Shown here piece by piece: positions 7,599 to 16,422 of a stretch of 28,916 nucleotides of DNA (the stretch's first letter is position 1; each line of letters opens with the position of its first letter). The notes beneath the pieces were generated by a model that was not told the DNA's origin, did no database searches, and worked only from the letters and a program-made list of their open reading frames with translations. Origin of the DNA: a virus. The translations under genes were made by a program, and so were the position numbers. The DNA lies in IMG/VR virus record IMGVR_UViG_3300042866_000653, positions 1-28,916 of that record; one strand, written 5' to 3'.

Positions 7599-7648
7599 CC
7601 ATATTGTGTTAACTGTTAAGAAGCCTCAAAGAAATTTGGGGCTTTTTT
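7599..7648 (+). ncRNA. Possible ~50-nt small RNA or attenuated leader
   Basis: The promoter at 7562-7592 would begin a transcript at about 7599 that meets a strong terminator ending at 7648. No start codon or reading frame lies between. Either a short RNA of about 50 nt is made, or this is an attenuated leader for the genes from 7742 onward. The transcript would consist of an unpaired 5' part plus the terminator hairpin. The evidence is positional only. Confidence 0.35.
7621..7648 (+). terminator. Rho-independent terminator after holin
   Basis: The 10-bp stem AAGCCTCAAA/TTTGGGGCTT (one G-T pair) has a GAAA tetraloop and is followed by a T-run. Confidence 0.85.
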
Positions 7649-7655
7649 ATGCGTT

Positions 7656-7725
7656 TACCGTTCATAAAGCTATTTTACCGTTCATCACAATTGCAGGAAA
7701 CTAAGGTTATAAGTAGTTAAATTTG
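7656..7725 (+). promoter_or_regulatory. Paired operator and promoter P1
   Basis: Two copies of TACCGTTCAT begin at 7656 and 7676, exactly 20 bp apart; the second extends as TACCGTTCATCACAAT. TAAATTTG, matching TAnnTTTG, lies at 7718-7725, 42 bp after the second copy begins, and precedes the ATG at 7742. The same arrangement occurs at 11275 and 14751. I infer a shared regulatory protein binding cooperatively on one face of the helix. Confidence 0.6.
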
Positions 7726-7741
7726 AGGAAAATTAAACAAT

Positions 7742-7954
7742 ATGAAAAACACGAAAATAACAATTACTTTAATGATTACGGAAAACACCAACTTTTTAGG
7801 TAGTGTTATGAATCACGTTAAAGAGGTTGTTTGCAATGCTAAAAAAGATTGCGACATTGATTTTTTAGGAGTTACTGGAAATGTAGAATTTCAAGAAACA
7901 CGAATTGAAGAAATCAACGGGGTAAAATATCAAATAATTAAATCCAAAATATGA
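7742..7954 (+). CDS. Hypothetical protein, first gene of P1 operon
   Basis: A 70-residue protein without a recognisable domain. It starts with a beta-type segment (TKITITLMITENTNF), has a central stretch with two Cys (VVCNAKKDCDIDF), and ends in a beta-like strand. There is no signal peptide or membrane segment. It is the first gene after the paired operator P1 and overlaps the next gene by ATGA. As the promoter-proximal gene of a small-gene operon it may have a host-takeover or regulatory role, but nothing in the sequence shows this. Confidence 0.65.
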   Translation: MKNTKITITLMITENTNFLGSVMNHVKEVVCNAKKDCDIDFLGVTGNVEFQETRIEEINGVKYQIIKSKI

Positions 7955-8211
7955 AACGAACGATTTTAAAACTACAACACTCCGAAAAACCTGATTTGTT
8001 TATCGTAGTAAATGGTGGCATAGCTGAAGCGTATGACGTGGCGCAAACTTACAAGGTTAAAAAGTACGTAATGAAAGAGGCAATTCCTGCGAGAATTTGT
8101 ATATTTCAAAATGAGAAATGTCCTATAATTAGTGAACATTTGAACTATTACACTATTTTTTATAATCAACAAGAGTTAGCAGTTACTTCAACACAAATCG
8201 AGATACTATGA
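7951..8211 (+). CDS. Hypothetical protein
   Basis: An 86-residue protein, not recognised. It begins MKRTILKLQHSEKPDLFIVV and is predicted to be mixed alpha/beta with several Tyr and two Cys residues. No membrane segment or catalytic motif stands out. It sits in a chain of ATGA-coupled genes (upstream at 7951-7954, downstream at 8208-8211), so it is translated with its neighbours. Confidence 0.6.
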   Translation: MKRTILKLQHSEKPDLFIVVNGGIAEAYDVAQTYKVKKYVMKEAIPARICIFQNEKCPIISEHLNYYTIFYNQQELAVTSTQIEIL

Positions 8212-8453
8212 GAAAACTTACACCCAACGAAAAGCTAATAGCAGTTGTTGCAATTTTACCCGTAATGGCGGATTTAATGGAAGATATTAAGTTATTCCAA
8301 CTTTCAAAGAAATACGGAAATTTGTTTATTGACGAAGTACGCAAAACAGATAATACAATAATTCACGATGCAGAATTGGAAGCGCAATCGCAACAAGTAA
8401 ACATACAACGCGCGTTCGTTCAATGGTTGCAAAATGAATTTATAGAGCAGTAA
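8208..8453 (+). CDS. Hypothetical protein
   Basis: An 81-residue protein, not recognised. The N-terminal half has a hydrophobic stretch (LIAVVAILPVMADLM, residues 10-24) that could be a short membrane-associated helix. The rest is a charged helix rich in Gln and Glu. It is linked by ATGA to the preceding gene and is followed by a 19-base gap. The gap contains a leader (AGTAACAATAAAACAAAT) similar to those before 11653 and 14418. Confidence 0.6.
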   Translation: MRKLTPNEKLIAVVAILPVMADLMEDIKLFQLSKKYGNLFIDEVRKTDNTIIHDAELEAQSQQVNIQRAFVQWLQNEFIEQ

Positions 8454-8472
8454 CAATAAAACAAATAATACA

Positions 8473-8829
8473 ATGGAAAAAGGAAAAACAATTTTTGAGC
8501 AATTAGATGAAAAAAACATTTGTTATTCAGTGCTTATAAGTTTAGTTAGTTCTAAATTAGTAAGTGTTGAAGGTGGCAAAAAAGAGTATTCGATAATTAT
8601 ACACCGCAACGATTTAGATAAATTAAAAGGTTACGGATTTTATAACAGCGAAGTTTATAAATACATAATTTACGAACGCGATTTATTAATTCACGAAGTT
8701 GCAAGGTTTAAAGAAACAATCGAAAACTTTGTAAAAGTGAAACACGACAAACACGGGCGCGTTTATGAATTAAAAAACAATTCTTTTAAATCAATGTACG
8801 AATCTTTAAAACACAATAAATGGAACTAA
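8473..8829 (+). CDS. Hypothetical protein
   Basis: A 118-residue protein, not recognised. It is mixed alpha/beta and rich in Lys, Tyr and Val, including KKEYSIIIHRNDLDKLKGYG (about 35-54) and a helical segment around IYERDLLIHEVARFKETIEN. There are no membrane segments, Cys clusters or catalytic signatures. The start follows a leader copy instead of an overlap, so this may begin a sub-unit of the operon. Its 3' end overlaps the next ATG by 10 bases. Confidence 0.6.
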   Translation: MEKGKTIFEQLDEKNICYSVLISLVSSKLVSVEGGKKEYSIIIHRNDLDKLKGYGFYNSEVYKYIIYERDLLIHEVARFKETIENFVKVKHDKHGRVYELKNNSFKSMYESLKHNKWN

Positions 8830-8981
8830 ATTTAGCATCGCTGTTTATTATCGCTGGAATGGCTGTAATGATAGCAATTAAAAACCAACGTATTCAGTAC
8901 CTGAAAGACGAGCGTAACCACTACAAAAGAGTAGCTGAAAAATTAGAGCAAGACATTAACAATTTAACACAAACAAAATGA
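8820..8981 (+). CDS. Small membrane-anchored coiled-coil protein
   Basis: A 53-residue protein with an N-terminal hydrophobic helix (LASLFIIAGMAVMIAI, residues 5-20) followed by a charged helix (RIQYLKDERNHYKRVAEKLE) suited to coiled coil. It overlaps the preceding gene by 10 bases and the next by 4. The layout (short N-terminal membrane helix, periplasmic coiled coil, close to lysis genes) resembles a small i-spanin. The candidate single-gene spanin at 9190 makes that role less necessary. Confidence 0.55.
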   Translation: MELNLASLFIIAGMAVMIAIKNQRIQYLKDERNHYKRVAEKLEQDINNLTQTK

Positions 8982-9193
8982 ATAGAGAAAGATACTTTAA
9001 ACAATTAGTCCAGGAACAATCGGATAAAATCAAAGAACTAGAAGCGGATTATAACGACGAATTTACAAAGGGAGTTTTGAAGACGAAAGAGATTGAAAAA
9101 CTAAGGAATATTATTAGATTTATCCAACGTGGAATGGACGGCAACGAGCAGTTTTTACAAGTGGTTAACGACTTAAAAGGAGGCATCGAATGA
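8978..9193 (+). CDS. Small coiled-coil protein
   Basis: A 71-residue, highly charged, all-helical protein, MNRERYFKQLVQEQSDKIKE followed by further heptad-like sequence, with no membrane segment. It is coupled by ATGA on both sides, to the membrane-anchored coiled-coil protein before it and the spanin candidate after it. It may form a complex with the preceding coiled-coil protein, but I do not recognise the family. Confidence 0.55.
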   Translation: MNRERYFKQLVQEQSDKIKELEADYNDEFTKGVLKTKEIEKLRNIIRFIQRGMDGNEQFLQVVNDLKGGIE

Positions 9194-9633
9194 ATTTAGA
9201 TTTCAGAAAAATATTTATCATAATTTTAGGAACGCTTTGGTTGTGGTTAATGATTTCAATTCTTTACGGTTGCTCAGCAAGTTACCACTTTGGGAAATTC
9301 TTAAAGAAAGGCGGTACGATTGACACTACCGAACGAATTGTAAGCGTTGAAAAAGTAATTAAGGTAAACGGCAAAGATTCAATAATATTAGTTGAGATGC
9401 CGTTAAATTGCCCAGAAGTACAAATACCTGCAACACGTTACGAAACGCGCTTAGAATACAGATTAAAGCGTGATAGCATTGAAACGGTGCGTTACGTTAC
9501 TAAGTGGAAAACTAAAGAAGTTGTAAAGGTTGCTAAAGTTAAAGAACGTAAGCCGTTTAATTGGTTTTGGGTAGGTTTGGGAATAGGTTTAATTTTACCG
9601 ATTTTATTTAAATTTGTAATAAATAAATTATGA
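9190..9633 (+). CDS. Candidate unimolecular spanin (lipoprotein with C-terminal TM)
   Basis: A 147-residue protein with an N-terminal hydrophobic stretch (residues 8-27) ending in a lipobox, LYGC, with Cys28 as the predicted lipidation site. A 95-residue periplasmic region rich in charged beta-type repeats follows. The C-terminal hydrophobic helix is at 124-146 (FNWFWVGLGIGLILPILFKF). Outer-membrane lipoprotein anchor plus inner-membrane C-terminal helix in one chain is the architecture of u-spanins such as T1 gp11, which fuse inner and outer membranes in the last step of lysis. Its place directly before the endolysin candidate supports this. It could also be an unrelated phage lipoprotein. 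Confidence 0.55.
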   Translation: MNLDFRKIFIIILGTLWLWLMISILYGCSASYHFGKFLKKGGTIDTTERIVSVEKVIKVNGKDSIILVEMPLNCPEVQIPATRYETRLEYRLKRDSIETVRYVTKWKTKEVVKVAKVKERKPFNWFWVGLGIGLILPILFKFVINKL

Positions 9634-10205
9634 AACCAACAATTTACCAAATTATCAAAGGAATGGAAACGATCGGTGCGGTTGTATTTCGTGAGCCTTT
9701 CAGTATTAACCTTTTCGGAGTGCGTACAAATGAAAACAAAGCAAACACGTTTAACGATTGGGGTGGCGCTTTCTATTGGGATAATAAAGGCAAAAGGCAC
9801 GATCTAATTATTCCAATTACAACTGACGCAGGGGTTTATTACCGTTTGAAGCCAATGAATAAACTTGGAACGGCTATTTTAGTGCATAACAAACAATATA
9901 GAGGTTGCTACAATTTGCTAGATAACGGACATATGAAGCAAAAAGCGTTTAGACAAATCAAACCAATGGAATATTGGAGAGATAACGACAAAGATGCTGA
10001 ATTGGATATGCAAGGTAAAATTTACAGCGAGATAGCTTTTACCAACTTTCACTATATGGGGCGTGGAGTTACCGTTGATAATTGGTCAGCTGGCTGTCAA
10101 GGTGCATCTGTTACCAATATGAATCGTTTATACGCCTTTGTTGAGGTGCAAAAGTCAAGAATTTATAGTTATACGTTACTTCACGAAAGTATTTTAGGAA
10201 AATAA
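9630..10205 (+). CDS. Candidate endolysin (SAGCQ-motif protein)
   Basis: A 191-residue protein with no signal peptide. The core contains GTAILVHNKQYRGCYNL (about 80-96), a Tyr-Trp-Arg-Asp element at about 115-118, and a C-terminal FHYMGRGVTVDNWSAGCQ (140-157). His141, Ser153 and Cys156 form an H...SxGC arrangement reminiscent of L,D-transpeptidase-type (YkuD-like) active sites. Phage proteins with an N-W-S-A-G-C-Q motif are found in lysis cassettes. The gene is ATGA-coupled to the spanin candidate and ends in a terminator, consistent with a lysis gene. Peptidoglycan cleavage is inferred, not shown. Confidence 0.5.
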   Translation: MKPTIYQIIKGMETIGAVVFREPFSINLFGVRTNENKANTFNDWGGAFYWDNKGKRHDLIIPITTDAGVYYRLKPMNKLGTAILVHNKQYRGCYNLLDNGHMKQKAFRQIKPMEYWRDNDKDAELDMQGKIYSEIAFTNFHYMGRGVTVDNWSAGCQGASVTNMNRLYAFVEVQKSRIYSYTLLHESILGK

Positions 10206-10230
10206 AATCGGAGTTGAACGCCTGATTTTC

Positions 10231-10258
10231 AGCTACTTAGAAATGAGTAGCTTTTTTT
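10231..10258 (+). terminator. Terminator after lysis region
   Basis: A 7-bp stem AGCTACT/AGTAGCT with an 8-base loop, followed by a run of seven T. It lies 26 bases after the stop at 10205. Confidence 0.8.
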
Positions 10259-10278
10259 ATTGAAAATAATTTAGTATT

Positions 10279-10313
10279 TATAGTATATATATGAAATATA
10301 GTATATATATTTG
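10279..10313 (+). promoter_or_regulatory. Promoter with 14-bp direct repeat
   Basis: TATATTTG at 10306-10313 matches the Bacteroidota -7 box and lies 24 bases before the ATG at 10338. TATAGTATATATAT occurs twice, at 10279-10292 and 10297-10310, 18 bp apart; the second copy overlaps the -7 box. No TTG is present at the -33 position, so the repeat may mark an operator or activator site. Confidence 0.5.
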
Positions 10314-10337
10314 TAGACACTTAAACGGAAAAGCATT

Positions 10338-10499
10338 ATGATAACTTTAAAAGTAACAAGACACAAAGGAACACAATTTGAAAAAGTTATGTTTGAATTT
10401 ACTGCTAAAACTAAAAAAGAAGTTAATGCAGAATTTGTAAAAAAAGAGGGTTGGATGTATAAAAACATGAGCAGAACTTACGAATACATAAAAAACTAA
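10338..10499 (+). CDS. Small hypothetical protein
   Basis: A 53-residue basic protein. The sequence MITLKVTRHKGTQFEKVMFE plus a Lys-rich helix suggests a beta-hairpin followed by a helix. It stands alone between the promoter at 10279-10313 and a terminator at 10509-10530, so it is a single-gene transcript. Such isolated small genes in phages are often early host-takeover genes, but no function is evident. Confidence 0.6.
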   Translation: MITLKVTRHKGTQFEKVMFEFTAKTKKEVNAEFVKKEGWMYKNMSRTYEYIKN

Positions 10500-10508
10500 G
10501 TAACCAAC

Positions 10509-10530
10509 AAGGGGCGTAAAAGCCCCTTTT
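10509..10530 (+). terminator. Terminator after small gene
   Basis: The 7-bp GC-rich stem AAGGGGC/GCCCCTT has a 6-base loop and is followed by T residues. Confidence 0.8.
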
Positions 10531-10544
10531 AAAAACTAAACACA

Positions 10545-10622
10545 ATGGAAGGGAAAATCGTTTACTTATTAATACTTTATTCAATAGTAGCAACTATCAA
10601 GTTAATTATAAAATCAAAATAA
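10545..10622 (+). CDS. Possible 25-residue membrane peptide
   Basis: The frame MEGKIVYLLILYSIVATIKL plus IIKSK encodes almost only a single hydrophobic helix with basic ends. It starts 14 bases after the terminator and ends one base before the next ATG (10624). The position is convincing, but the frame is very short. Confidence 0.4.
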   Translation: MEGKIVYLLILYSIVATIKLIIKSK

Positions 10623-10623
10623 A

Positions 10624-10761
10624 ATGGCAAAGAAAAAAGTAATGATTACAATTAGTGAAAGCGACTTAAAGCATTGCAAAGAGCAATCGTTTAAGAAACT
10701 CAAAGACACAAACGTAAGCGGTTACATCGCAGTATTAATTGAAAAAGACAAATCAAAATGA
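10624..10761 (+). CDS. Small ribbon-helix-helix-like protein
   Basis: A 45-residue basic protein. The start KKKVMITISESDL is a candidate beta-strand plus turn, followed by one helix (LKHCKEQSFKKLKDT) and a second (NVSGYIAVLIEKDK). This strand-helix-helix layout is that of the Arc/CopG ribbon-helix-helix DNA-binding fold, in which paired strands read the major groove. The sequence is short and I cannot confirm the fold. It is ATGA-coupled to the next gene. If real, it is one candidate for a regulator of this phage's operators. Confidence 0.5.
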   Translation: MAKKKVMITISESDLKHCKEQSFKKLKDTNVSGYIAVLIEKDKSK

Positions 10762-10961
10762 AACTAGACACTAGATTATACTTTCTAAAAGACCCGTTTC
10801 TTTATATTCCTTTATTCTTATTTTTAGGTGGTTTAGGAATGATTATTAAGAACGAACAGCCGAAAGCTAAAGCAACCACTAAAGAAAGCGTTACAGCCGT
10901 TAAAAAAGATACAACGGAATGGCGCAAACAGTATTACGAACATTTGTATAATACGAAATGA
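10758..10961 (+). CDS. Small single-pass membrane protein
   Basis: A 67-residue protein with one hydrophobic helix at about residues 13-30 (FLYIPLFLFLGGLGMIIK) and a basic, Thr/Lys-rich hydrophilic tail ending in WRKQYYEHLYNTK. ATGA overlaps on both sides support translation. A single membrane anchor with a cytoplasmic or periplasmic tail is visible; no family is recognised. Confidence 0.55.
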   Translation: MKLDTRLYFLKDPFLYIPLFLFLGGLGMIIKNEQPKAKATTKESVTAVKKDTTEWRKQYYEHLYNTK

Positions 10962-11311
10962 AAAGCGAACACAGATTTCCGTACAACTGGAATTTAAAAG
11001 ATGCAGTTTTCACAAAAGACAAAGGAAAAGTATTTAGTTGTTTTGCGTGTGGTGGTGGCTCAACAATGGGCTATAAATTAGCAGGGTTTGATGTTATTGG
11101 ACACAACGACATTGATAAAAAAATGATTGAAGTTTATAAAGAAAATCACAATCCTAAATTTAGCTTTCACGAATCAATAACAACTTTTGCAAAGAGAAAA
11201 GATTTACCTAAAGAATTGTATAATTTGGATATTTTAGATGGTTCGCCACCTTGTTCAAGTTTTTCAATGGCTTTTACCACTCAACACCTAATACAACCGT
11301 TCAACACATAA
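10958..11311 (+). pseudogene. Truncated C5-cytosine DNA methyltransferase
   Basis: The 117-residue frame contains the N-terminal part of a Dcm-type enzyme: motif I FACGGGSTMGYKLAGF (about 29-44) with the SAM-binding Gly-rich loop, an acidic motif at HNDIDK, and motif IV DGSPPCSSFS (about 92-101) with the catalytic Cys. The later motifs (VI, VIII, IX, X) and the target-recognition domain are absent; the frame ends 16 residues after motif IV. The terminal residues TTQHLIQPFNT do not resemble the family. They coincide with the second paired operator, so the end of the gene has been replaced. It is probably inactive alone; a partial regulatory or split role cannot be excluded. Confidence 0.65.
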
Positions 11312-11345
11312 GCGGAAAAGTAAGTAAGTAAATAATATAATTTAG
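11275..11345 (+). promoter_or_regulatory. Paired operator and promoter P2
   Basis: A degenerate site (TACCACTCAACAC) begins at 11275 and AACCGTTCAACACATAA at 11295, 20 bp apart. TAATTTAG (one mismatch to TAnnTTTG) lies at 11338, 43 bp after the second site, just before the ATG at 11350. The second site shares ACCGTTCA and the following CACA with the P1 and P3 sites. The 13 bases from 11312 also match those at 7693 at 10 positions. Confidence 0.5.
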
Positions 11346-11349
11346 CACT

Positions 11350-11643
11350 ATGGAAACACTAAACTTTTATAAGCAATGCGATACGTGTCAAGGTGATGCG
11401 TACGTAATAATCAACGGAACACCGAATGAAAACCCACAATTTGACGAACACGAAGACTGTCCAATTTGTAACACTGGAAAAGTTCCGAATAACGAGGTGA
11501 TTCAAGAATGCCTTGATAAATGGGAGGATGTTGTAAGTAGAATAATTGAAGCACGTAACGAAAGAATTAAGCGTGAAGAAGAGTTCTTTTACAAATTAGC
11601 AAATCATCAATGGAGGTTAAAAAATAAATTAAGTAACAATTAA
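11350..11643 (+). CDS. Zinc-ribbon-like hypothetical protein
   Basis: A 97-residue protein with CDTC (Cys10, Cys13) and CPIC (Cys37, Cys40), two CxxC pairs 23 residues apart, that probably bind one zinc ion. The rest is a charged helix (about 48-90) with CLDKWEDVVSRIIEARNERI. There is no signal peptide. Similar treble-clef or DnaJ-type knuckles occur in small phage proteins that contact nucleic acids or host proteins. It is the first gene downstream of paired operator P2. Its stop lies 9 bases before the ATG of the next gene. Confidence 0.65.
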   Translation: METLNFYKQCDTCQGDAYVIINGTPNENPQFDEHEDCPICNTGKVPNNEVIQECLDKWEDVVSRIIEARNERIKREEEFFYKLANHQWRLKNKLSNN

Positions 11644-11652
11644 AACAAATAT

Positions 11653-12045
11653 ATGAAAAGAATTTATCACCCTTATTGGTTGTGGGAAGACCACAAAAAC
11701 GGATTTTACAATAATTGCTCTGGTGAAGAAAAAAAGGTATTTATTTCTAAAATTTTAGAAATGTTTAACTCTGAAAAACTTACAGAACAATTTATGTTAC
11801 GAGTAATTAACGAATGGAAATATTCGTGTGAACACAACTTAACAAATGAATCAATGAATAAAATCGCCTACATAGGTCAATCAGCTTGTTGTTTGTTTTG
11901 TGGTGCGCCAAATACCGTAACAATGGAGTCTTGGAGTTTACTATCAAATGAAGTAAAAAAAAGGTCAAATGAAATAGCAGAAAAAGTATTAACAATTTGG
12001 GAAACCCAAAACAAATACATTCAAACATGCCTAAAATTGGATTAA
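11653..12045 (+). CDS. Hypothetical Cys-containing protein of the ibr cassette
   Basis: A 130-residue protein of unknown function. The N-terminus has KRIYHPYWLWEDHKNGFY, and a compact motif QSACCLFCGAPNTVTMESWS lies at about 75-94, with CCxxC and the start of a zinc-knuckle-like segment. The remaining sequence is helical. It overlaps the IbrA-like gene by 19 bases. To my recollection, similar proteins accompany PAPS-reductase-family/ParB-family pairs in other phages; the role is unknown. It starts after a leader that is almost identical to the one before 14418. Confidence 0.6.
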   Translation: MKRIYHPYWLWEDHKNGFYNNCSGEEKKVFISKILEMFNSEKLTEQFMLRVINEWKYSCEHNLTNESMNKIAYIGQSACCLFCGAPNTVTMESWSLLSNEVKKRSNEIAEKVLTIWETQNKYIQTCLKLD

Positions 12046-13238
12046 AAAAGAATGTTTTCGATTGTTCAATTGAAAGAATAAATTTCACTTTTGATAATTT
12101 TGAAAGGATTTATTTATCATTTTCAGCAGGAAAAGATTCAACCGTTATGCTTCATTTAGTTATGGAAATAGCTAAGCAAAGAAATCAAAAAATAGGCTTA
12201 TTAATTGTTGATTTAGAAGGTCAATATAAAATGACTATTGAACATTTAGAAGCGTGCATAAATGAGTATTCAGAATGGATTGAATTATATTGGGTTTGTT
12301 TACCTATCCATTTAAGAAATGCTGTTTCTGTTTACGAACCGTTTTGGAAATGTTGGGATTCTGAAAGAAAAGAAGATTGGATAAGAGAATTGCCAGAAAA
12401 AAGCATTTCAGATTTAGATTATTTTCCATTTTTTAGTGACGGTATGGAGTTTGAAGAGTTTGTTCCTGAATTTGGTGAATGGTATTCACAAGGAAAATTA
12501 ACGGCTTGTTTAGTTGGAATTAGAAGCGATGAATCTTTAAACCGATACAGAACAATAAGTTCAACTACAAAAGTTATTTTCAAAGAAAAGGTTTATACTA
12601 CAAAAGTTACTGAAAATGTTTTTAATGTTTATCCTATTTACGATTGGAAAACAGAAGATATTTGGATTTTTCACGCTAAATTCCCAAACAAAAGATATAA
12701 TCAACTTTATGAATTAATGTTCAAAGCAGGTTTATCAATACATCAACAACGGATTTGTCAGCCTTATGGAGACGACCAAAGAAGAGGTTTATGGTTGTTT
12801 CATTTAATAGAGCCTGAAACGTGGGCAAAAGTAGTAGCAAGGGTAAACGGTGCAAATTCTGGTGCATTATACGTAAACGAAAGCGGTGCAATAAATGGTT
12901 ATAATTCAATCAAAAAACCAAAAGGTCATACGTGGAAATCATTTTCTGAATTATTCTTAAATTCAATTCCAGAGGTTACAAAAGAACACTACTTAAACAA
13001 AATATATGTTTTTGAGAAATGGTGGAAAGAAAGAGGTTATGAAGTTGAGATACCAGACGAAGCACCACAAATACTTGAATCTAAAAAATTAACTCCAAGT
13101 TGGAGACGTATTTGTAAATCACTTTTGAGAAATGATTTTTGGTGTAAAGGATTAGGATTTACACAACAAAAAACAGATGCTTATCAAAGATATTTAGATT
13201 TGAAAAAACAACAACGATTAAATCACAAAACAAAATGA
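12027..13238 (+). CDS. ibrA: IbrA-like PAPS reductase/ATP-pyrophosphatase family protein (DUF3440)
   Basis: A 403-residue protein of the phosphoadenosine-phosphosulfate reductase family, with the ATP-pyrophosphatase PP-loop SFSAGKDST at about residues 31-39. It also has a C-terminal region with RRICKSLLRNDFWCKGLGF, typical of the DUF3440/IbrA group. Residues GIRSDESLNRYRTI (about 163-176) and IYDWKTEDIW are further family hallmarks. IbrA of E. coli was described as a regulator of immunoglobulin-binding proteins; the biochemical role is unclear. I choose ATG 12027 because it gives MPKIGLKKNVFD and overlaps the previous gene by only 19 bases; a TTG at 11997 would add 10 residues. It lies in an operon with a nuclease and an IbrB-like gene. 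Confidence 0.75.
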   Translation: MPKIGLKKNVFDCSIERINFTFDNFERIYLSFSAGKDSTVMLHLVMEIAKQRNQKIGLLIVDLEGQYKMTIEHLEACINEYSEWIELYWVCLPIHLRNAVSVYEPFWKCWDSERKEDWIRELPEKSISDLDYFPFFSDGMEFEEFVPEFGEWYSQGKLTACLVGIRSDESLNRYRTISSTTKVIFKEKVYTTKVTENVFNVYPIYDWKTEDIWIFHAKFPNKRYNQLYELMFKAGLSIHQQRICQPYGDDQRRGLWLFHLIEPETWAKVVARVNGANSGALYVNESGAINGYNSIKKPKGHTWKSFSELFLNSIPEVTKEHYLNKIYVFEKWWKERGYEVEIPDEAPQILESKKLTPSWRRICKSLLRNDFWCKGLGFTQQKTDAYQRYLDLKKQQRLNHKTK

Positions 13239-13750
13239 TTTCAGTAACTAAATTATTAGACATACTTAATAAACCTAATTTAATTTATTGGGCAAATAAA
13301 ATTGGTTTAGAAGGTATAAATATTAATGATTATGAATCTAAAAGCAAATCTGAAGGTGTTAATAATCATAATCAAATTGAATTATTTATAAAAAAAGGTG
13401 TGAAATTTAAAGGTTGTGAAATTTTTGAAAAAGAAATTAAAGATTTTGAAATAATTGGAGTTGAAGTTGATGTGAAAAATGATTTCATAAATGGTAGAAT
13501 AGATTTAATTTTAAAAAAAGAAAATCAAATATTTATTTGTGATTTTAAAAAAAATAAAAATATTTATTTAAATACAAAACTTCAACTATCAACATATAAA
13601 CATCTTTATGGAGCAGATAAAATATGTTTTATAAATAGTTCTGATTTTAAAATAAAAGAAATAACAATTGACACACAAAAATATTTTGAAATAGTAAAAA
13701 GATTATTTCAAATACATAGCTTATTAATAAAATTAAATGAAAAATTATGA
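13235..13750 (+). CDS. RecB/Cas4-like PD-(D/E)XK nuclease candidate
   Basis: A 171-residue protein with the core of a PD-(D/E)XK nuclease: a His in GVNNHNQIELF (about 41-51), VEVDV (76-80), GRID (87-90, with a metal-binding Asp), ICDFKKNK (101-108, the D-x-K signature), and QLSTYKHLYG (117-126), the Q-x3-Y motif of RecB/Cas4-like nucleases. The motifs are in the correct order and spacing. DNA cleavage is inferred from the fold only. It is ATGA-coupled to both the IbrA-like and the IbrB-like gene, so all three act in one unit. It is the most AT-rich gene of the window, which suggests a distinct origin. Confidence 0.6.
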   Translation: MISVTKLLDILNKPNLIYWANKIGLEGININDYESKSKSEGVNNHNQIELFIKKGVKFKGCEIFEKEIKDFEIIGVEVDVKNDFINGRIDLILKKENQIFICDFKKNKNIYLNTKLQLSTYKHLYGADKICFINSSDFKIKEITIDTQKYFEIVKRLFQIHSLLIKLNEKL

Positions 13751-14397
13751 TTGAAAAATTAAATAAATTGTTAGAAGAAATATCCAATATGAAATTGGAT
13801 GAAAAAGTAACTGCTATTAATGAAATAAAAATGCAATTACATAAAATAAGTCCTTTTAATTCTGAACCAGTTGATTGTGTTATTTGGGTGAAAAATAATA
13901 CAGTTTATGCAAATGACTATAACCCAAATAGTGTTGCGCCACCCGAAATGGAACTTTTAAGGCTTTCAATTTCAAACGATGGATATACCCAACCAATTGT
14001 TTCAATGGATAACGGAAACGAAACAAGAGAGGTTATTGATGGATTCCATAGAAATAGAGTAGGTAAAGAATGTGAAGACATTCAAAAACGAGTGCATGGA
14101 TATTTACCTGTTGTTACAATTCGTGAATCTCAAAACGGTAAAAACGATAGGGTAGCTTCAACTATTCGACATAATAGAGCAAGAGGTAAACATAAAGTTG
14201 ATTCAATGTCTGAAATTGTAGTTGACTTAAAAAAACGTAATTGGAGTGATGCTAAAATCTCTAAGGAATTAGGAATGGATAGAGACGAAGTTTTAAGATT
14301 AACTCAAATATCTGGACTTACAGAAATGTTTTCAAATAAAGAATTTTCAGAGGGTTGGAGTCCTTTTGAAGAAAATGAACAAGAAACAATAGATTAG
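13747..14397 (+). CDS. ibrB: IbrB-like ParB/Srx-family protein
   Basis: A 216-residue protein with a ParB N-terminal domain: DYNPNSVAPPEMELLRLSI (about 57-75), DGYTQPIVS (78-86), and REVIDGFHRNRVGKE (94-108) containing the GxHR motif that binds nucleotide in ParB-type domains. A second conserved segment is STIRHNRARGKHK (138-150). A C-terminal helix-turn-helix (SDAKISKELGMDRDEVLRLT, 167-186) probably binds DNA. IbrB of E. coli has this architecture and is encoded next to IbrA, as here, although here a nuclease gene lies between. Whether it has CTPase or nuclease activity is not visible. Confidence 0.75.
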   Translation: MIEKLNKLLEEISNMKLDEKVTAINEIKMQLHKISPFNSEPVDCVIWVKNNTVYANDYNPNSVAPPEMELLRLSISNDGYTQPIVSMDNGNETREVIDGFHRNRVGKECEDIQKRVHGYLPVVTIRESQNGKNDRVASTIRHNRARGKHKVDSMSEIVVDLKKRNWSDAKISKELGMDRDEVLRLTQISGLTEMFSNKEFSEGWSPFEENEQETID

Positions 14398-14417
14398 TAA
14401 CAATTAAAATCAAATAT

Positions 14418-14750
14418 ATGCAAGTAGCAGGTAAATTAGTGGTAATCAATGCCACGCAAGTAGTAAGCGAGAAATTCTCGAAAAGAACGTTTGTAGTTGA
14501 AACAGCAGACCAATATCCACAGTCAATCGAGTTTCAATTAACGCAAGATAAATGCGACTATTTGGACGCTTACAAAGTAGGAGAACAAGTTAATGTTTCT
14601 ATTAATATTCGTGGCAGAGCGTGGACTAATCCACAAGGCGAAACTAAGTATTTCAATACGTTAGAAGCGTGGAAAATTGAAAAGGTAGGTAATGCACCCG
14701 TAATGAATCCAAACGCACCAAACGAAGAAAAAGACGATTTACCTTGGTAA
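14418..14750 (+). CDS. DUF3127 OB-fold single-stranded DNA-binding protein
   Basis: A 110-residue protein that resembles the DUF3127 family of Bacteroidota. Strands such as VAGKLVVINATQVV and FSKRTFVVETADQYPQSIEFQL, then VNVSINIRGRAW, form an apparent OB fold. The acidic tail ending EEKDDLPW resembles the C-terminal tip of SSB proteins, which recruits replication partners. It probably coats ssDNA for the Erf annealing protein downstream. A 25-bp leader precedes the start, a near copy of the one before 11653. The gene is followed by the paired operator P3. Confidence 0.75.
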   Translation: MQVAGKLVVINATQVVSEKFSKRTFVVETADQYPQSIEFQLTQDKCDYLDAYKVGEQVNVSINIRGRAWTNPQGETKYFNTLEAWKIEKVGNAPVMNPNAPNEEKDDLPW

Positions 14751-14821
14751 TACCGTTCATCATTGAATAATACCGTTCATCACAATAACAAGTTTTGAAC
14801 GGTTATTTAAAATTAGATTTA
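14751..14821 (+). promoter_or_regulatory. Paired operator and promoter P3
   Basis: TACCGTTCAT begins at 14751 and 14771, 20 bp apart; the second is TACCGTTCATCACAAT, identical over 16 bp to the P1 site. A third, inverted partial copy (TGAACGGTTA) lies at 14796-14805. TAGATTTA (one mismatch to TAnnTTTG) lies at 14814, 43 bp after the second site. The ATG of the Erf gene is at 14839. Confidence 0.6.
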
Positions 14822-15915: not shown

Positions 15916-15932
15916 CACGATGCATTTAATTG

Positions 15933-15963
15933 AAGCCTTGCATTAAGTTGTAAGGCTTTTTTT
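15933..15963 (+). terminator. Terminator at end of recombination operon
   Basis: The 10-bp stem AAGCCTTGCA/TGTAAGGCTT (one G-T pair) has a 6-base loop and is followed by a T-run. It lies 17 bases after the stop at 15915. Confidence 0.85.
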
Positions 15964-15970
15964 GTGTCAA

Positions 15971-16237
15971 ATGTTGACTTTTTAGGGGTAAAAAAGCAAA
16001 GTCAATACTAACTAAACATAAAACTAAATCAATGTTTATAAGGGTTTGATGCTGAAATGTTGACTTATTGAGTTTTTTTCTCCTATACTTATATTATATT
16101 TTATAGGTTTTTAGAGTTTTTACATATTTTTAAAAAAAAATGACAGAAAAAAGTCAATAAGTAAACAAATATAGCTGAAACCTTTATTGCTATTAACTTT
16201 TACAATGTTGACTTTATGTTGACTTTATGTTGACTTT
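15971..16237 (+). repeat. Iteron cluster, candidate origin of replication
   Basis: ATGTTGACTTT occurs at 15971-15981, 16205-15, 16216-26 and 16227-37; the last three are tandem with an 11-bp period. A 10-bp core copy lies at 16057-16066. Inverted copies AAAGTCAATA lie at 15998-16007 and 16150-16159. AT-rich tracts separate them. No frame is present, and replication genes start at 16420. Tandem plus inverted iterons next to AT-rich DNA, just upstream of a helicase operon, are typical of origins bound by an initiator protein. Origin function is inferred. Confidence 0.6.
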
Positions 16238-16290
16238 AAAAAAAAATGATTAAAAAAGTAAACATTTTCGTTTTATTACAAAACTTTTTA

Positions 16291-16298
16291 TATATTTG
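16291..16298 (+). promoter_or_regulatory. -7 promoter box of replication operon
   Basis: TATATTTG matches the Bacteroidota -7 box. The -33 region carries TCG instead of TTG at the expected distance. Transcription would start at about 16305 and produce a leader of about 115 nt before the ATG at 16420. Confidence 0.5.
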
Positions 16299-16304
16299 TG
16301 CATC

Positions 16305-16422
16305 TGAAATAACGTCAATTACAGAAAAATATTTTTTTAGAAACACAATTAAGTGAAAAACTCTCCTGCCTTTGACGTGGCTAGCTTGATTGTGTTTCTT
16401 TTATTTAAAATTACGTCAAATG
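16305..16422 (+). promoter_or_regulatory. Structured leader with start-codon complementary loop
   Basis: The arms AGAAACACAATTAAG (16339-16353) and CTTGATTGTGTTTCT (16385-16399) form a 15-bp stem with one G-T mismatch and a 31-base loop. The loop contains TTTGACGT (16371-16378). This is perfectly complementary to ACGTCAAA at 16413-16420, directly before and into the start codon of the next gene, and also to ACGTCAA at 16312-16318. Alternative pairings could open or block the start site, or ACGTCAA could be a protein site. Inference from complementarity only. Confidence 0.45.

Follow-up and report, generated by a model that had tools for sequence, protein, structure and literature searches.

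Three operons in the window, i.e., the whole analysed stretch of 28,916 nucleotides from the IMG/VR record IMGVR_UViG_3300042866_000653 of an uncultured Bacteroidota phage, are each headed by two short tandem repeats followed by a promoter-like box. The repeat TACCGTTCAT occurs exactly at positions 7656, 7676, 14751 and 14771, always on the plus strand and with no further exact copy in the window, and thus forms two pairs with a period of 20 bp. A third pair with the same period has diverged to TACCACTCAACA and AACCGTTCAACA and starts at 11275 and 11295. We refer to the three sites and their promoters as P1, P2 and P3. Downstream of each pair lies a −7 box of the TAnnTTTG type (TAAATTTG at 7718, TAATTTAG at 11338 and TAGATTTA at 14814), and the boxes of P2 and P3 match only five of six consensus positions. 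The exact and diverged pairs and the boxes, at distances of 42, 43 and 43 bp from where the second site begins, had been described in an earlier sequence-only reading of this DNA, and all were found in place; two features of the surroundings, an overlap with a coding sequence at P2 and an additional half-site at P3, had escaped it.

P1 follows directly on a terminator-like hairpin with a T-run (7621..7650, plus strand, read by eye) that closes the late/holin operon. Its upstream half-site TACCGTTCATAA (7656..7667), downstream half-site TACCGTTCATCACAAT (7676..7691) and −7 box (7718..7725, 42 bp after the downstream half-site) all lie on the plus strand, as does the operon behind them (7742..10205), which encodes small proteins without assigned function, an Rz-like spanin (8820, a weak match), a lipoprotein-like ORF (9190) and a phrog_3000 protein (9630). 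Because of the latter three genes (8820-10205), P1 may drive lysis-type genes and not early genes alone. The homologue of the first gene of this operon is also preceded by a pair at locus L188.

The P2 operator (half-sites at 11275..11286 and 11295..11306, −7 box at 11338..11345, 43 bp after the downstream half-site, all on the plus strand) does not occupy a clean intergenic gap: it falls within a truncated methylase ORF (10958-11311), at its 3′ end. The pair differs from the exact one at five positions over 2 × 12 bases, the best background pair in the window at seven, and in a base-reversed control the frequency of pairs with at most five mismatches is about 0.01 per window for a given period. 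P2 is therefore real in itself, and its half-site variant ACCACTCA is also common among related phages. The operon that follows (11350..14750, plus strand) encodes a zinc-ribbon-like protein, an ibrA-like PAPS reductase, a PD-(D/E)XK nuclease, a ParB-like/IbrB protein and a DUF3127 single-stranded DNA-binding protein (SSB). As a separate observation, the C-5 cytosine methylase at 10958-11311 is cut to 117 amino acids; up to about 11254 it shares 86.6% DNA identity with Flavobacterium phage tooticki, and the match ends just before the P2 operator. The break probably marks a recombination event through which the P2 promoter was acquired and the methylase was inactivated.

At P3, the upstream half-site TACCGTTCATCA (14751..14762, plus strand) and the downstream half-site TACCGTTCATCACAAT (14771..14786, plus strand) are accompanied by a third, inverted half-site, AACCGTTCAA on the minus strand (14795..14804), which begins 24 bp from the first base of the downstream half-site and lies between the pair and the −7 box (14814..14821, plus strand, 43 bp after the downstream half-site). 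The operon behind P3 (14839..15915, plus strand) encodes an ERF single-strand annealing protein and a protein of 155 amino acids; ERF genes preceded by a site were also found at L223, L234 and L260. Next to this operon, a 474-bp AT-rich intergenic gap (15916-16389) contains repeats of TGTTGACTTTA and, on both strands, several −7-like boxes, and could be a replication origin.

The 20-bp period extends far beyond the window. When IMG/VR was scanned for two exact half-sites separated by 9-12 bp, which allows periods of 19-22, 81 viral stretches were returned, four of which have a period of 21 (L006, L014, L028 and L068) and all others a period of 20. Diverged pairs with up to four mismatches and periods of 19-21 were then counted in about 20 motif-carrying contigs (at most 46 kb each, 684 kb in total), and among the matches listed the period was 20 in 43 of 43. 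Periods of 14-30 added one other pair to the same 684 kb (period 27), and the base-reversed control of this sequence contained no diverged pair. In a second scan of IMG/VR, which required the downstream half and the −7 box but not the upstream half, the upstream half nevertheless stood at exactly 20 bp in 29 of the 32 non-redundant viral contexts among the matches listed for that scan alone; the period is thus not an effect of the search pattern. L212, an isolate-derived contig, matched without an upstream half, and in G012/L123 the period fits, the half-site ends differ (TACCGTTCATGT) and the −7 box is poor. The isolated relatives P12024L, tooticki and RAP44 are without sites, and no record with a pair was found in INPHARED at the sensitivity used. 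Motif-carrying phages fall into groups A (which includes the window), B and C plus one outlier. Conservation of the spacing in related phages had been named beforehand as a test of the proposal that a single regulator binds two sites two helical turns apart and controls several operons together; the spacing is conserved, which supports the proposal.

The distance between operator and promoter is equally constrained. In 50 non-redundant phage contexts among the matches listed, a perfect TAnnTTTG follows the downstream half-site at 42-44 bp (26 contexts), 52-53 bp (5), 62-65 bp (18) or 72 bp (1); the only distances outside these classes are five matches at 35 bp, read as overlap with the TTTG of the −33 element. 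The classes are spaced by whole helical turns (Rayleigh test at a period of 10.3, R = 0.89, nominal p ~1e-18, which is indicative only, since the contexts are related by descent and some of them come from a search restricted to distances of 39-69). A TTG at −33 spacing is present in 3/26 promoters of the 43-bp class, compared with 4/5 of the 53-bp class and 11/18 of the 63-bp class, i.e., about chance level at the adjacent position versus 15/23 at the farther ones. Class II and class I activation classically differ in just this way. The inverted third half-site seen at P3 recurs with the same arrangement, at an offset of 24 only, in 6/26 phage promoters of the 43-bp class. An ORF starts shortly downstream of 44/50 sites, and these ORFs, among them ERF and a protein that we take to be RecT-like, belong to mostly unrelated families; what the phages have in common is therefore the promoter module and not one gene.

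This geometry bears on how the pairs function. Short direct repeats in a phage could be iterons for replication or packaging, or could have arisen by chance, yet the pairs occur several times per genome, precede an operon each time at a fixed distance from a −7 box and are absent from control sequence, which already contradicts this reading and makes it the least credible of those considered. Hardly more credible is a promoter extended by the paired sequence and read by a phage sigma factor without any activator. The product of 20405-20962 matches a PHROG sigma factor (E = 5e-5), but a sigma-region-2 gene also occupies this place in Nonlabens phage P12024L, which has no such sites, the −7 box is of host type, and distances of 43, 53 and 63 bp are incompatible with one sigma promoter. 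The sigma-70-like gene itself sits just before the terminase genes.

The sequence-only reading had left open whether the sites serve activation or repression. Several operators before several operons would also be expected of a repressor, for immunity or early-gene shut-off, and repression at P3 might act through its inverted third half-site, which overlaps the stretch from −33 to −7. Against this, the sites are placed upstream of the core promoter at helically quantised distances, and the −33 element is missing only from promoters with the site at the closest position, neither of which a repressor needs, so that repressor operators appear unlikely. Spacing from the −7 box in helical steps, together with the loss of the −33 element at the closest position, favours an activator, and we consider it very probable that the pairs are activator sites of some kind.

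Which protein recognises them was approached from the phage side. Neither 37 motif phages nor 2.28 Mb of sequence from motif phages, many contigs of which are fragments, yielded a LytTR domain, and weak LytTR-like phage matches turned out to be a family of virion-like proteins. Profile cross-searches of the partly incomplete contigs recovered no protein resembling a regulator that groups A, B and C have in common. They share ERF alone and, in part, a small MTPKEKA protein of 75 aa, which does not resemble a DNA-binding protein, is not universal among motif phages and was rejected as a candidate. The same fate befell the ribbon-helix-helix-like protein encoded at 10624, which the sequence-only reading had offered as a possible regulator: its homologues are restricted to three further contigs with the motif, each closely related to the window, so that it is present in four contigs only.

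Cellular genomes carry the same layout. Across GTDB, sampled at one genome per species, the exact TACCGTTCAT pair was found in 28 stretches, mostly with a period of 21 and once with a period of 20, and a LytTR gene lies at 3 of these 28 loci. Across 397 Flavobacteriaceae genomes, strict pairs with at most three mismatches number 9 vs. 6 in the control, which is no enrichment, with about 18 vs. 10 at a period of 21 (counted by eye). Looser half-site pairs, sought without requiring a −7 box, number 19 vs. 5 in the control across 395 Bacteroidia genomes, and several non-coding ones carry a −7 box at 42, 43, 43 and 65 bp. When ACCRYTYAT pairs were combined with a −7 box at 43 bp, Bacteroidia genomes gave 25 matches at a period of 20 against none in the control, and 82 matches in 58 genomes against 9 at a period of 21 (sums counted from the listing). 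These numbers indicate that Bacteroidia themselves use this promoter architecture, with both periods, the period-20 sites of the hosts being rarer and more degenerate than those of period 21. The period-20 matches (L327-L351) are mostly found within a few dozen bases upstream of an ORF. Among the products of these ORFs are S49 and M16 peptidases and an S33-type hydrolase (two genomes each), M24 and M43 peptidases and outer-membrane proteins, and one pair directly precedes a LytTR-domain gene. The matches form an apparent host regulon with LytTR-like pairs of period 20 and a −7 box at 43 bp, and the phage sites represent a sharply defined consensus of this form. Another host target, padR-pspC, had been suggested by the chance loci L282 and L291 and was dropped, as 30 homologous loci are without the site.

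Taken together, the lack of LytTR domains and of a common regulator in the phages and the presence of the layout in Bacteroidia favour a host factor, the second candidate that the sequence-only reading had named. Due to the incompleteness of the contigs, the main rival is an activator encoded by the phages themselves, of a fold not recognised here, that turns on a set of middle operons as MotA does in T4. Its gene could lie outside the sequence searched, many phage contigs being fragments; several sites per phage resemble a phage regulon, and the strict period-20 consensus of the phages does not exceed chance in the 397 Flavobacteriaceae genomes. We regard such an activator as possible but rather unlikely, given that the profile searches revealed no regulator-like protein shared by the three groups, that the ribbon-helix-helix-like protein is confined to four contigs, and that the layout also exists in cells.

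The form of the half-site points to a particular class of host activator. LytTR sites generally consist of 9-11-nt repeats with 11-13-nt spacers, and an oligonucleotide bound up with this class, that of Escherichia coli YehT, contains ACCGCTTA and ACCACTCA 21 bp apart (PMC4847170). The phage repeat ACCGTTCAT of 9 nt with a spacer of 11 nt, at a period of 20, has this form at the lower edge of the published range, and the phage half-sites ACCGTTCA, ACCACTCA and ACCGCTTA match the ACCGCTTA...ACCACTCA of the YehT oligonucleotide, a likeness that is supportive only because LytTR sites share no universal consensus. The usual LytTR period is 21-22 bp; the phages keep to 20, cellular pairs are mostly at 21, and Bacteroidia also use 20. 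No LytTR gene accompanies the sites on the same replicon or in the same operon in the motif phages, so that the protein, if supplied by the host, would act in trans. LytTR proteins number up to tens per Bacteroidia genome, few of them with known targets.

On balance, we infer binding, LytTR identity, activation and host origin, and consider it probable that the pairs are operators of a LytTR-type activator encoded by the Bacteroidota host. Two protomers would occupy the tandem half-sites ACC[G/A][C/T]T[C/T]AT on one face of the DNA, 20 bp apart and just upstream of a promoter with a TAnnTTTG −7 box. At the 43-bp position, as in P1, P2 and P3, the bound site would replace the missing −33 element in a class II-like manner, while in related phages with the site one or two turns farther upstream it would work alongside the −33 element in a class I-like manner. 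Three operons would thereby be tied to one host activator: the small and lysis-like genes behind P1, the ibr cassette, nuclease and SSB behind P2, and ERF recombination behind P3. The promoters would work like LytTR-activated ones; a literature search, mostly of papers accessible without subscription, found no report of phage operons controlled by a host activator of the LytTR type.

Promoter control in Bacteroidota phages is largely uncharted. More tentatively, and with less confidence than we place in the operators themselves, at least three separate Bacteroidota phage lineages may have placed their recombination, lysis-like and takeover operons under a single host LytTR activator that uses a 20-bp operator, so that phage expression would follow the signal sensed by this activator, whose uncharacterised regulon would also be present in Bacteroidia before peptidase and other cell-envelope genes. 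If phage operons do require a host activator, infection would depend on the signalling state of the host, the activator would be a likely route to phage resistance, and the site would provide a ready inducible promoter part. The promoter rule, i.e., a paired site 43, 53 or 63 bp from the −7 box with a −33 element that is dispensable only at 43 bp, is ready for reporter assays and supplies a search pattern for LytTR regulons of Bacteroidia (ACCGTTCATC, period 20, −7 box at 43, 53 or 63 bp).

Three known systems offer comparisons. In the middle promoters of phage T4, an upstream sequence box recognised by the phage-encoded MotA replaces the −35 element, and the promoters described here likewise have an upstream box in place of a −35-type element; they differ from the T4 promoters in that no phage regulator was found and that the same layout occurs in cells. 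At class I and class II promoters of the CRP type, site distances differ by whole helical turns and the −35 element is weak or missing at the closest position. The phage sites are phased in the same way and lack the −33 element at the closest position, but their operator consists of direct repeats and not of a palindrome, and their regulator, unlike CRP, is only inferred. The closest resemblance is to the operators of LytTR proteins such as YehT/BtsR, YpdB, Staphylococcus aureus AgrA, whose site is centred near −60, and Pseudomonas aeruginosa AlgR, which have tandem half-sites of 9-10 bp about two turns apart upstream of a promoter. The phage half-site ACC[G/A]CT[C/T]A resembles the YehT oligonucleotide and presumably also the AlgR site ACCGTTCGTC. 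Compared with these operators, the phage pairs have a period of 20 instead of 21, belong to phages without a detected LytTR gene, and are joined to Bacteroidota −33/−7 promoters at three helically phased positions.
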